A program made the translations under genes and the position numbers. 35,517 nt of DNA from the NCBI GenBank assembly GCA_001464155.1, contig LNEN01000299.1, forward strand, positions 1-35,517. The letters run 5' to 3'. This document shows positions 3,370-20,214 of this stretch, in pieces. Source of the DNA: Cytophagales bacterium Ga0077538. Lineage in GTDB: Bacteria > Bacteroidota > Bacteroidia > Cytophagales > Cyclobacteriaceae. The notes beneath the pieces are model-generated. The model saw only the letters and a program-made list of their open reading frames with translations, did not search any database and was not told the DNA's origin. The stretch's first letter is position 1. Every line of letters begins with the position of its first letter.

Positions 3370-3382
3370 CGTCACTTGTGTG

Positions 3383-3468
3383 TACCTCGGGCGGGACTTG
3401 AACCCGCACGACTATTACTAGCCACAGGATTTTAAGTCCTGCGTGTCTACCAATTCCACCACCAAGGC
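3383..3468 (-). tRNA. tRNA-Leu (anticodon TAA)
   Basis: The minus strand folds as a class II tRNA of 86 nt. It starts GCCTTGG and has the D arm GTGGAATTGGTAGACAC, an anticodon stem CAGGA/TCCTG around a loop with TAA, a long variable arm and the T arm GCGGG-TTCAAGT-CCCGC, then closes with CCGAGGT and discriminator A. The G1-T72 pair is also seen in E. coli tRNA-Leu. CCA is not encoded (ACACA follows), so the 3' end must be added by nucleotidyltransferase. It decodes UUA, and by wobble UUG. Confidence 0.95.
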
Positions 3469-3487
3469 AGGTTGTGAAACCTTGTGT

Positions 3488-3595
<108 letters not shown>

Positions 3596-16845: not shown

Positions 16846-17443
16846 CTATGTTTTGAATTCTCCGAGTCCTTGTCTAACCAAGGTGGGTTCATTCGTAGTA
16901 AGATCGACTACGGTAGAAGGCACATTTCCCAACTTTGTTTTTGAAGTCCTCATAAATTTCCTCCGGATCGGTAGTGTATTCTTTGATCAGGTCATCGTCC
17001 TTGATTGAGGAAGTGATAAGTGGGTTTCCCAATTCAGCCACAATGCTGAGCGGTATAGCATGTTGGGGGATACGAATGCCCACCATTTTTTTATTCACAT
17101 CCAGAATTTTGGGAACTTTGTTGCTGGCCTCCAGTAAAAAGGTAAAAGCACCCGGCAGGTTCTTTTTTAATAGTTTGAAAGAAGGCGTTTCCAAATTCTT
17201 CACGTACTCAGAAATGTGACTGAGATCATTGCAGATAAAAGACAAGTCGAGCTTTTGAGGTTTGATGTCGAGAATCTTGCAGAGTCGTTCCACAGCCTTC
17301 TTATTCATCAGGTCACAGCCAATGCCATAGATGGTATCGGTTGGGTACACGATAATGCCGCCACTGCGCAATACCTCTACCGCACGGGAAATTTTTCTTC
17401 CCTCGGGATTTTGCGGGTGGATTTTGAGGAGTTCGGCAGACAT
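16846..17443 (-). CDS. tsaC: Threonylcarbamoyl-AMP synthase (TsaC/Sua5/YrdC), 1-bp frameshift near the C terminus
   Basis: The enzyme makes threonylcarbamoyl-AMP from Thr, bicarbonate and ATP for the t6A modification of tRNAs that read ANN codons. The YrdC domain is clear: [18 protein letters not shown] (about 28-45), [25 protein letters not shown] and PLITSSI. The frame as read stops at 16889 after an out-of-family tail ([13 protein letters not shown]). Dropping one base of the GGGAAA run (16925-16930, minus) yields [20 protein letters not shown] and a stop at 16846, exactly the family ending, for 198 residues. It is the short TsaC form without the Sua5 C-terminal domain. Since t6A is normally indispensable, a sequencing error is likely unless a second copy exists. 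Confidence 0.88.
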
Positions 17444-17510
17444 GGAGGAATGTTATTGCTTACAAGATATGCAATTCAAAAGCAGTTTTAAACTCGACTT
17501 TATTATTGGG

Positions 17511-17592
17511 ACTCACCCCTGATCATCTTCGATGATCTTCCCCTCTCTACTTTGTAGAGAGGGGTGGCTCGCATTTGCGAGACTGGGTGAGT
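17511..17592. repeat. 82-nt cloverleaf palindrome (closing stem plus three hairpins)
   Basis: The outer stem ACTCACCC (17511-17518) / GGGTGAGT (17585-17592) encloses three perfect hairpins: GATCATC-TTC-GATGATC (17521-17537), CCCCTCTCTAC-TTT-GTAGAGAGGGG (17540-17564) and CTCGC-ATTT-GCGAG (17568-17581). Every stem is fully paired. It fills the gap between the mutS stop (17597) and the tsaC start (17443). It is not a tRNA, having no T loop or acceptor sequence. It looks like a structured dispersed repeat; function unknown. Confidence 0.85.
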
Positions 17593-17596
17593 TTTA

Positions 17597-20200
17597 CTAC
17601 TTCTTTAGAATTGTCAACACTTCATTCAATTTCAATAATGCCTCTACCGGACTAATGGTGTTGATGTCGACTTTGTGAAGAAGTTCTTCCACCGCTTTGT
17701 GTTTGGGGTCTAGCTCGAACAGGCTGATCTGACTGGTTGACTTTGGAAGCTCTTCCAGTTTCTTGCGCGGTTCGTTCTTGTGTTTGTCTTTTTCCAGAAA
17801 GTGCAGAATTTCATTCGCGCGAAGCACCACTTTGTTCGGCATGCCAGCCAGTTGAGCCACGTGTATACCAAAGCTGTGTTCGCTTCCACCTTCTTTTAAG
17901 GTGCGCATGAAAATAATTTTGTCTGCCACCTCCTTCACGCTCACATTGAAATTCTTAACACGCACTAAATCTTCTGTAAGCTGATTGAGTTCGTGATAAT
18001 GCGTAGCGAAAAGTGTTTTAGGTCTATAGTCTTTATGATTATGTAAATACTCCACAATGGCCCAGGCAATGGACACCCCATCGTAAGTGGAGGTACCGCG
18101 ACCAATCTCGTCCATCAGGATCAAACTCCGATCGCTTAGATTGTTCAGGATGCTGGCCGTCTCCGTCATCTCCACCATAAAGGTGGATTCACCTCGTGAT
18201 AGATTGTCGCTGGCACCCACGCGGGTGAAGACTTTATCGACCATGCCGAGTGTAGCCGATTGCGCAGGCACAAAACTTCCAATCTGTGCCATCAAGACAA
18301 TGAGGGCAGTTTGCCGTAGCAAGGCCGACTTACCTGCCATGTTCGGACCCGTAATGACTAAGATCTGCTGCTTCTCATTGTCTAAATAGATGTCATTGGG
18401 CACATAGCTTTCGCTGATGGGGAGTTGCTTTTCAATAACCGGATGGCGTCCCGCTTTGATATCAATAAGTGTGGTGTCGTTGATTTGTGGACGCACATAC
18501 TTGTTCTTCTTCGCTACCTGCGCGAAAGAGAGGAAGCAATCAAGGGCAGCGATGGCGCGTGCATTTTGTTGTATCTGTGCTGTGAAATCCGTGGCGTGTA
18601 CAATCAGCTCTTGAAATAATTTCTGCTCGATCGCCCCGATCTTTTCTTCGGCTCCGAGAATTTTCTCTTCGTATACTTTTAACTCTTCAGTAATGTAGCG
18701 CTCGGCATTCACCAGTGTCTGCTTGCGAATCCAGTCAGCTGGTACTTTATCTTTATTGGCATTGCTAACTTCTAAGTAATAGCCAAAGACTTTGTTGTAT
18801 GAGATTTTTAAAGAGTTGATTCCCGTGCGTTCTATTTCACGTTTTTGTGCCTGGAGTAAATAATCTTTTCCAGAACCAGAGATGCCACGCAATTCATCCA
18901 ACTCGGCATGAATGCCATCTTTAATGATACCTCCTTGATTGCTGTGGATGGAGACATCTTCGCGCAGTTCATGTTCAATTTTATCGACCAAGAAATCGCA
19001 GGCATGTAATTGATCGGCTAGTTTCTTCAGTTCTGCAGAAGCTTGCTGACTCAATTCTTTTTTTACGGGTGTGATGCGCTGCAGCGATTTTTTTAACTGA
19101 AGTAATTCCCGTGGGTTGATGCGCCCAACGGCTACTTTAGAAATCAATCGCTCTAAATCGGTAATGTGTCTGATCTCTTCTACCAAACGATCGGCCAGGT
19201 CTGCATCTGCGTGAAGGGTACTGACAATGGACAAGCGCTCTTCAATCGCCACGATGTCTTTCAATGGAAGAATCATCCACTTGCGCAATTGGCGCGAGCC
19301 CATGGGCGTTAGGGTATGATCCAGTATCTCCAATAAAGGAACGCCTCCTTCTTGCTGCGCAGAAACCAACTCCAGATTGCGAATGGTGAATTTATCCAAC
19401 CACACATATTTCTCTTCATCGATTCGTGCGATGGAGGTGATATGTTGAGTGTCCTTATGTTCGGTAGCTTCTAAATAATGCAAAATGGCTCCGGCCGCTA
19501 CGATGGCTTCTGGCAATACATCTATACCAAAGCCCTTCAGCGAAACTGTTTTGAAATGAGCCAGTAGTTTTTCCTGAGCAAAATCGAAGGCATATACCCA
19601 ATCATCTAAAGCAAAGGTGGCGTGACCATCGGAGAACAAGCTCTCTAATTTCTCGCGTACACTTTTGGCGAAAATAATTTCGGCAGGCGCAAAACTCTGA
19701 ATGAGTTTGAGCACATAAGTTTCTGAACCTTGTGCCGCATAAAATTCTCCTGTACTAATATCGAGGAAGGAAACGCCCACACTATTTTTTTGCCAATAGA
19801 CAGAAGCTAAGAAGTTATTCTGTTTGCGCTCGAGCACATTGTCGTTAAAGGAAACACCCGGAGTTACCAATTCCGTTACACCTCGCTTCACAATACCTTT
19901 TACAAAACGTGGATCTTCCAATTGATCGCAAATAGCCACCCTGTGCCCGGCTCTTACCAATTTGGGTAAGTAAGTGTCCATGGCGTGATGCGGAAAACCG
20001 GCTAATTCAATTTCAGAAGCAGAACCATTGCCGCGTTTGGTGAGCGTAATGTCTAGGACATTGGCAGCCTTGATCGCATCTTCTCCAAAGGTTTCATAAA
20101 AATCACCCACCCGAAAAAGTAGGAGCGCCCCCGGATACTTTGCCTTGATGGCATTGTACTGTTTCATGAGGGGCGTTTCAAAAGCGGAAGGTCCGGCCAT
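17597..20200 (-). CDS. mutS: DNA mismatch repair protein MutS
   Basis: The protein recognises base mismatches and small loops and, with MutL, starts strand-directed repair. In order it has domain I (mismatch-binding FYETF motif in LFRVGDFYETFGEDA), the connector and lever domains, the clamp, and the ATPase domain with Walker A GPNMAGKS (about 616-623), the LSRGESTFMVEM loop, Walker B LILMDEIGRGTS and the TH(Y)HELN switch. The tail ends with a MutS C-terminal segment. The length of about 867 residues is normal for MutS1. The ATG at 20200 is preferred over a TTG at 20209, because that TTG is part of the -7 element TATATTTG. Upstream the divergent M1 peptidase gene begins at 20292. Confidence 0.96.
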   Translation of the reverse strand: MAGPSAFETPLMKQYNAIKAKYPGALLLFRVGDFYETFGEDAIKAANVLDITLTKRGNGSASEIELAGFPHHAMDTYLPKLVRAGHRVAICDQLEDPRFVKGIVKRGVTELVTPGVSFNDNVLERKQNNFLASVYWQKNSVGVSFLDISTGEFYAAQGSETYVLKLIQSFAPAEIIFAKSVREKLESLFSDGHATFALDDWVYAFDFAQEKLLAHFKTVSLKGFGIDVLPEAIVAAGAILHYLEATEHKDTQHITSIARIDEEKYVWLDKFTIRNLELVSAQQEGGVPLLEILDHTLTPMGSRQLRKWMILPLKDIVAIEERLSIVSTLHADADLADRLVEEIRHITDLERLISKVAVGRINPRELLQLKKSLQRITPVKKELSQQASAELKKLADQLHACDFLVDKIEHELREDVSIHSNQGGIIKDGIHAELDELRGISGSGKDYLLQAQKREIERTGINSLKISYNKVFGYYLEVSNANKDKVPADWIRKQTLVNAERYITEELKVYEEKILGAEEKIGAIEQKLFQELIVHATDFTAQIQQNARAIAALDCFLSFAQVAKKNKYVRPQINDTTLIDIKAGRHPVIEKQLPISESYVPNDIYLDNEKQQILVITGPNMAGKSALLRQTALIVLMAQIGSFVPAQSATLGMVDKVFTRVGASDNLSRGESTFMVEMTETASILNNLSDRSLILMDEIGRGTSTYDGVSIAWAIVEYLHNHKDYRPKTLFATHYHELNQLTEDLVRVKNFNVSVKEVADKIIFMRTLKEGGSEHSFGIHVAQLAGMPNKVVLRANEILHFLEKDKHKNEPRKKLEELPKSTSQISLFELDPKHKAVEELLHKVDINTISPVEALLKLNEVLTILKK

Positions 20201-20206
20201 AGTTGG

Positions 20207-20214
20207 CAAATATA
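20207..20214 (-). promoter_or_regulatory. -7 element of mutS, close to its start codon
   Basis: On the minus strand TATATTTG matches TAnnTTTG and ends 6 nt before the ATG at 20200. The predicted transcript therefore has little or no leader. No clear TTTG at -33 is seen. Confidence 0.5.

Follow-up and report, generated by a model that had tools for sequence, protein, structure and literature searches.

Box C repeats, whose core motif also carries the names PIT and TMECO, have been known since the 1990s without, as passages of one account have it, a function or a mover (PMC4666352). The same passages place the strict motif in 262 proteobacterial genomes, report that TMECO forms a triplex in vitro with no stable triplex footprint found in vivo, describe neither a transposase nor an integrase near the E. 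coli sites, and cite earlier work in which promoter or terminator activity of PIT elements was not found (PMC4666352). A second system for comparison is that of the REP repeats and their RAYT enzymes; for Y1 genes of Bacteroidetes subclass 2.6, a passage of one report mentions flanking ‘atypical secondary structures’ (PMC6006769). The DUF559 family (PF04480, YcjD-type endonucleases) is described at Pfam as of ‘unknown function’. We know of no repeat partner for it.

The stretch of DNA analysed, here called the window, is 35,517 nt of contig LNEN01000299.1 from Cytophagales bacterium Ga0077538. It holds an 82-nt cloverleaf at 17511-17592, whose coordinates and anatomy (an 8-bp closing stem and arms of 7, 11 and 5 bp) a preliminary description had given correctly. 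The features are as follows.

17511-17518 with 17585-17592: closing stem, 8 bp here; most of the 19 aligned copies have one of 9 bp.
17511..17519, plus strand: outer left strand ACTCACCCC, the 5′ half of the closing stem (98.2% of closing-stem cells paired over 19 copies).
17521..17537, plus strand: arm 1, hairpin GATCATC-TTC-GATGATC of 7 bp (17521-17527/17531-17537), from the fold and the copy alignment.
17540..17564, plus strand: central arm, CCCCTCTCTAC-TTT-GTAGAGAGGGG, 11 bp (17540-17550/17554-17564), 99.0% of cells paired.
17566..17583, plus strand: arm 3, hairpin GGCTCGC-ATTT-GCGAGAC, which varies more than the other arms.
17585..17592, plus strand: outer right strand GGGTGAGT, the 3′ half of the closing stem, from the fold and the copy alignment.
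17597..20209, minus strand: mutS (Pfam MutS domains I-V), a neighbour only.
16889..17443, minus strand: Sua5/YrdC (tsaC-type) gene (PF01300, E 9.5e-38), a neighbour only.

The cloverleaf lies 4 nt from the mutS stop and 67 nt upstream of the Sua5/YrdC gene start. The predicted RNA minimum free energy of 17500-17605 is -51.5 kcal/mol, against a mean of -25.4 (sd 2.9) for shuffles (z -9.1; 0 of 200 shuffles equally good), which bears out the earlier statement that such closure is beyond chance. The element had also been held not to be a tRNA, and indeed ARAGORN reports two tRNAs in the window, both within 3382-3595 and none at the cloverleaf, and Rfam at gathering thresholds lists only these same two. 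The idea that the element came from a plasmid or a phage was rejected, blastn having returned no match; the outer-plus-central pattern is present in five viral stretches.

For a survey of the element's own genome by blastn and by model, the model R1 was built from 19 aligned copies. There are 20 full copies (the window's included), one that a contig end truncates, three decayed copies (C145:6889, C229:4452 and C155:11052, the last with an R1 E of 2.6 yet 29 identical bases by blastn) and eight shorter two-arm relatives with ends CCTCACCCC...GGGGTGAGG. Copies lie at the end of contig C315 and the start of C316, as if the assembly had broken at the repeat. Over the 19 aligned copies 96.7% of 640 cells are paired (slid controls, 39-56%), and 21 cells have changed on both sides compared with 8.6 in shuffles, 0 of 500 of which scored as high. 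Two of five covariation measures are not clearly above shuffles: the number of pairs with both-side changes (24 of 500 as high) and that of further pair types (311 of 500). An alignment with misaligned G-runs (A2) was left out of the pair counts. Most covariation falls in arm 3, which has both-side changes at 4 of its 7 pairs over the 19 copies and 5 contiguous bp in the window copy (17568-17572/17577-17581); in arm 1 there is a single such pair, seen in 2 of 19 copies.

The own-genome copies occupy tandem, divergent and convergent gene settings. The 30 examined are intergenic and in both orientations, with few exceptions: the two-arm copy of contig C202 is inside an open frame, one (L013:467) is in an 81-aa frame, one (L006) has an overlap of 16 nt, and a short frame overlaps one that is decayed (L030).

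Among 196 family-level genomes, 14 match R1 at E 0.001, the own genome counted, and across them the boundary and the central hairpin are retained as the arms vary. The single site in a genome of the same genus, G033, is a 46-nt form that has the boundary and central stem of the window copy with the side arms absent. Searching for the outer-plus-central pattern gave at least 115 stretches, and the matches listed comprise 62 Bacteroidota, 10 Calditrichota, 15 further named phyla and 8 unassigned. Across phyla, the 80 listed loci contain 84 sites, of which 44 are closed palindromes with one mismatch allowed and 40 are not closed. A Box C-like half-unit was found in 51 of 395 same-phylum genomes, with no backwards control among the matches listed. 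At six loci of four genomes (L036, L037, L038, L044, L048 and L051; G104, G140, G065 and G152) the two-arm palindrome is nested in a larger MITE-like unit, which has imperfect outer inverted repeats of its own and occurs at different places of one genome. Another locus (L066, G184:C10:57651-58212) has three copies about 250 nt apart with flanks in common.

Relatives provide empty sites. The mutS-tsaC gap between matches is 63 nt in G033 and 68 nt in G164, compared with 169 in the window, and the element is absent. At three more sites, four same-genus genomes are syntenic on both sides in 4 of 4 (C117), 3 of 4 (C115) and 4 of 4 (C155) cases, and none of six core motifs is present in these gaps; in total, 13 of 13 syntenic gaps at four sites are empty, with flanks too diverged for the element ends to be placed at base level. 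No target-site duplication was found at lengths of 2-14 (lowest uncorrected p, 0.03). T is enriched in the 10 nt to either side of the 20 own copies, as read on the plus strand of the element (47% and 41%, compared with 27-34% further away), a possible strand-specific target.

The preliminary description had offered, as one of several readings, that the element is a dispersed, structured and perhaps mobile repeat, a reading to be given up for a lone copy with an unconserved fold. Some 20 copies with kept pairing, the compensatory changes it had wished to see, and empty sites in relatives all agree with that reading, and the boundary it named, ACTCACCC...GGGTGAGT, recurs in this phylum and in others.

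The window copy has the same core as the Box C/PIT/TMECO intrastrand-triplex motif (PMC4666352): CCCCTCTC-loop-GAGAGGGG, accompanied by the mirror strand GGGGTGAG. On either strand the half-unit reads CCCCTCTCT-loop-AGAGAGGGG-arm-GGGGTGAGT, with one side of the window copy short by one G. The central arm is the polypyrimidine/polypurine hairpin in common with Box C, and an identical stem is found in the plain form of G033. In minus-strand reading the outer left strand, GGGGTGAGT, would supply the third strand in a Box C-type triplex, with 9 of 9 permitted triads; the outer right strand, GGGTGAGT, is the putative third strand for the plus strand, with 8 of 9 in the window copy. The window copy has mirror strands on both sides, and consequently the outer strands also close the cloverleaf; hairpins fill the two linkers. 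The core arrangement (a hairpin and a mirror third strand with permitted triads) is likewise present in the own three-arm copies, with a hairpin as linker: all 9 triads are permitted on 31 of 40 strand-sides, four have 7-8 and five were not parsed. The strict Box C consensus, CCCTCNCCC N3-6 GGGNGAGGG N3 GGGNGAGGG, differs from the window copy and has no match across the examined own-genome loci; among the loci examined it occurs in G238 (3), G299 (4) and a Melioribacteraceae contig (1). A relaxed plain Box C form is present at three own-genome places.

The two parts of the motif vary together. In 138 half-units from 49 genomes the outer terminal base tracks the ninth central pair: A accompanies T-A in 59 and C accompanies C-G in 61, with 5 crossed combinations of one kind (all in G279), 1 of the other, and 12 others. 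Counted by genome, there are 11 with A and T-A, 32 with C and C-G, and 1 and 0 crossed; half-units of closed elements were counted once per strand, and genomes found by R1 may favour the R1 type. A hand count of genomes found by pattern only gave 5 with A and T-A, 26 with C and C-G and none with C and T-A, G279 being mixed. Such mirror covariation is a prediction of base triples, and could also reflect two old lineages. C-run lengths are moderately correlated (Spearman 0.33, conditioned loci excluded), 75 of 127 long linkers pass the hairpin criterion, and central loops in reverse-complement pairs number 16 of 19 (p 0.045). At one contig end (L272, G279:C7:5-222) Box C-like units are arrayed in tandem with a period of 58 nt and show the crossed outer/central combination.

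A repeat-specific endonuclease of IS200/REP type had been suggested for the element. The suggestion was right in kind, as DUF559 genes have such repeats (below), and wrong, where tested, in the enzyme named. There are 35 Y1 matches in 14 of 15 genomes, and at none of the 30 examined (14 genomes, up to 1.5 kb on each side) was an R1 element found; 13 of these have the motif DHxH and may be plain IS200 types, 7 have no detectable motif and about 10 are clear NHxH. The sole Y1 match of the own genome (L075, G000:C261) is a frameshifted gene split between two frames. No GT[AG]G foot was found at the hairpin base: the foot is ACTCACCCC in 19 of 19 aligned copies, and GTAG occurs in the element only at the tip of the central arm.

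DUF559 genes gave a different result. A PF04480 profile search covered 35 genomes, of which 34 were carriers according to R1 or pattern. It yielded 85 matches in 32 genomes, and flanks were counted for the 73 matches whose E was no higher than 1.1e-16. Of these 73 genes, 26 (in 22 of 31 genomes) have an exact Box C-like half-unit at a distance of up to 500 nt. The controls, 37 places at 40 kb from the genes on their own contigs and 30 Y1 loci, have none; with the limit widened to 1000 nt the three counts become 26 of 73, 1 of 37 and 0 of 30. In 24 of the 73 the unit is within 150 nt of the domain. Measured from R1 match to DUF559 domain, distances are 151 nt in G033, whose only element copy adjoins a DUF559 gene, 27 in G006, 92 in G148, 26 in G184, 43 and 7 on the two sides in G165, and 6 and 16 beside two genes in G173.

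Many DUF559 flanks without an exact half-unit carry other polypurine palindromes, and units of equal mirror build and other sequence occur there, for example CCCCTCC...GGAGGGG with GGGGTGG. Such units, which had not been looked for, add to the support for the mirror relation. A general unit was defined as a 7-nt purine arm (at least 5 G, 1 A), its perfect complement within 30 nt, and a mirror strand of permitted triads within 60 nt, searched in 250 nt outside each domain end, with six genes near contig ends excluded. It was found beside 52 of 67 DUF559 genes, on both sides of 27, and at 0 of 37 distant places, 0 of 28 Y1 loci with full flanks and 1 of 76 other frames (1 of 141 pooled); shuffled DUF559 flanks gave none in 20 rounds. 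Since this definition was formed after viewing the flanks, it was tested on new genomes: 26 loci, each of a different genome, taken from a draw of the phylum made without regard to the repeat. The general unit was present at 21 of the 26, on both sides at 7, and at 17 of the 22 where the same-phylum search had given no Box C-like pattern. In that draw PF04480 occurs in 49 of 118 genomes, and the Box C-like pattern in 16 of these 49 compared with at most 5 of the 69 others. A plasmid collection held 26 records with a DUF559 relative; 10 of the 14 examined have the general unit, and the failures were two E. coli records, though Box C pieces follow the gene, and two cyanobacterial records with other palindromes.

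A plus-strand unit before the gene and a minus-strand unit after it were seen in G391, G357 (two genes), G183, G006 (two genes) and G017. Inverted units around a gene are the arrangement termed REPtron for RAYT. The own genome has two DUF559 genes, one (C202) with a two-arm unit 7 nt past the domain and one (C239) with no half-unit within 600 nt; the exact three-arm 82-nt form of the window was not seen beside a DUF559 gene. At C202 (L058:593-2001, G000) the repeat joins the DUF559 gene and an amidohydrolase gene in one open frame, DUF559 upstream and amidohydrolase downstream, and is read through as a Pro/Arg/Gly-rich linker. The nearest solved chains to the DUF559 proteins are 3hrl (an endonuclease-like protein) and, weakly, 3r3p (a mobile intron protein).

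The association extends to E. coli. In MG1655 a strict Box C at 1351205-1351239, listed as TMECO no. 9 (PMC4666352), is 167 nt from the DUF559 gene ycjD (1351407-1351760), and another Box C piece overlaps the 3′ end of ycjD. DNA like ycjD is in 3365 of 5426 E. coli genomes; the E. coli among our 14 control genomes had no PF04480 match and is presumably a strain other than MG1655. MG1655 and 55989, with reported TMECO counts of 23 and 29, carry ycjD, and IHE3034, with a count of 1 (PMC4666352), is without ycjD between fabI and sapF; with three strains only, this is an anecdote. In place of ycjD, IHE3034 has five other genes, including a TetR regulator and efflux genes (L460, 1516207-1524225).

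The element of the window is a Box C-type repeat with several arms that has spread recently. With high probability Box C-type repeats belong to DUF559 nucleases, and for the window feature we favour, with somewhat better than even confidence, a non-autonomous copy of this type with DUF559 endonucleases as the cognate enzymes. DUF559 is likely the partner that spreads the repeats, because repeats of the same build adjoin its genes far above chance; the association is observed and the mobilisation inferred. The repeat consists of a polypyrimidine/polypurine hairpin and, to one side of it or to both, a purine strand in mirror relation; it would fold as a triplex or cloverleaf once the DNA is single-stranded. 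A DUF559 nuclease may recognise and cut the folded shape, and repair or copying of the cut ends might then seed new copies, including gene-less ones like that of the window. We give even chances to the broader view that this is trans-phylum selfish DNA, in which a folded strand able to form a triplex is recognised and spread by DUF559 endonucleases, with Box C-like repeats, multi-armed cloverleafs included, left behind in E. coli, Bacteroidota, Cyanobacteria and Alphaproteobacteria.

Adjacency could also come from a safe niche common to the repeats and the DUF559 gene, or from regulation of that gene by the repeat. Two carriers of units, G279 (28 pattern matches) and G317 (6), have no PF04480 match, and 15 of 67 DUF559 genes lack the repeat by the general definition. 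These carriers, with the lack of a target duplication and of any transposase or integrase in what is reported of the E. coli sites (PMC4666352), would suit a Box C-type repeat with no dedicated enzyme, spread and lost by slippage and repair, with DUF559 genes merely nearby. We consider this unlikely: 52 of 67 against 1 of 141 is too strong for coincidence, and the neighbourhood is seen again where both the repeat sequence and the DUF559 gene differ. That the repeats are operators, attenuators or terminators of DUF559 genes, copied elsewhere by accident, would account for the 24 of 73 units close to the domain, but units stand both before and after the gene and in tens of copies elsewhere, and the earlier work cited in passages of PMC4666352 found no promoter or terminator activity for PIT; this seems very unlikely.

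Recognition of a Watson-Crick cloverleaf by some other protein, with incidental triplex symmetry, is in our judgement unlikely. The 98.2% pairing of the closing stem, closure at 44 of the 84 cross-phylum sites in the listed loci with one mismatch allowed, and the existence of three-arm forms with other arm sequences speak for it; the 40 sites not closed, the mirror covariation, and recurrent right ends GGGGAGAGT that with left ends ACTCACCCC break the pair and keep a permitted triad speak against it. For movement by a Y1 HUH transposase, as in REP/RAYT, Y1 genes are available in 14 of 15 genomes, and a passage of PMC6006769 reports atypical structures beside subclass 2.6, but with the element at 0 of 30 Y1 loci and the general unit at 0 of 28 we hold it highly improbable, a limit of this count being that only about 10 of the 30 are clear NHxH types. 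The preliminary description had also allowed for a leader RNA of tsaC. An RNA element of tsaC or mutS would agree with the strong RNA fold and the position, yet about 20 copies occur in every gene setting, the same gap in G033 and G164 is without it, and no U-tract follows the element on the mutS-tsaC strand. The leader reading was dropped because copies occupy tandem, divergent and convergent settings, and we find an RNA element here scarcely credible.

The preferred reading, a repeat with a DUF559 partner, can be set beside known systems. The repeat itself is a form of Box C: alike are the polypyrimidine/polypurine hairpin with mirror strand GGG(G)TGAG, the intergenic location and the inverted pairs, and unlike Box C/TMECO it has a third strand on both sides, hairpins in place of N3 linkers, and a ninth pair T-A with outer A/T. 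Like MITEs it is short and gene-less, with inverted ends and empty sites; unlike them it has no target-site duplication, and no parent transposon with its ends was seen. The genes neighbouring the repeats are themselves members of PF04480, as are the DUF559/YcjD endonuclease-like proteins. Among the papers listed for DUF559 we found no earlier account of its pairing with a repeat, though one may exist, and the pairing appears new to us. With it a family of ‘unknown function’ gains a function to look for, and the question is open to bench tests, a nuclease gene adjoining Box C in E. coli K-12 and repeats of the same build in other phyla. The finding suggests that a three-stranded DNA shape, besides hairpins, could serve as the handle of a mobile repeat.

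The pairing most resembles that of REP/REPIN with RAYT (TnpA-REP), for which the accounts cited describe, in part, palindromic repeats between genes, placed in inverted orientation about one nuclease-type gene, and many gene-less copies elsewhere (PMC6006769, PMC3733652). It differs in having DUF559 in place of a Y1 HUH enzyme and a polypurine triplex-type unit in place of a GT[AG]G-footed hairpin, and the proposed system would thus resemble the REP/RAYT pair with an unrelated nuclease and a different DNA shape. If true, it is a second solution to the RAYT/REP task, each nuclease with its own repeat sequence.
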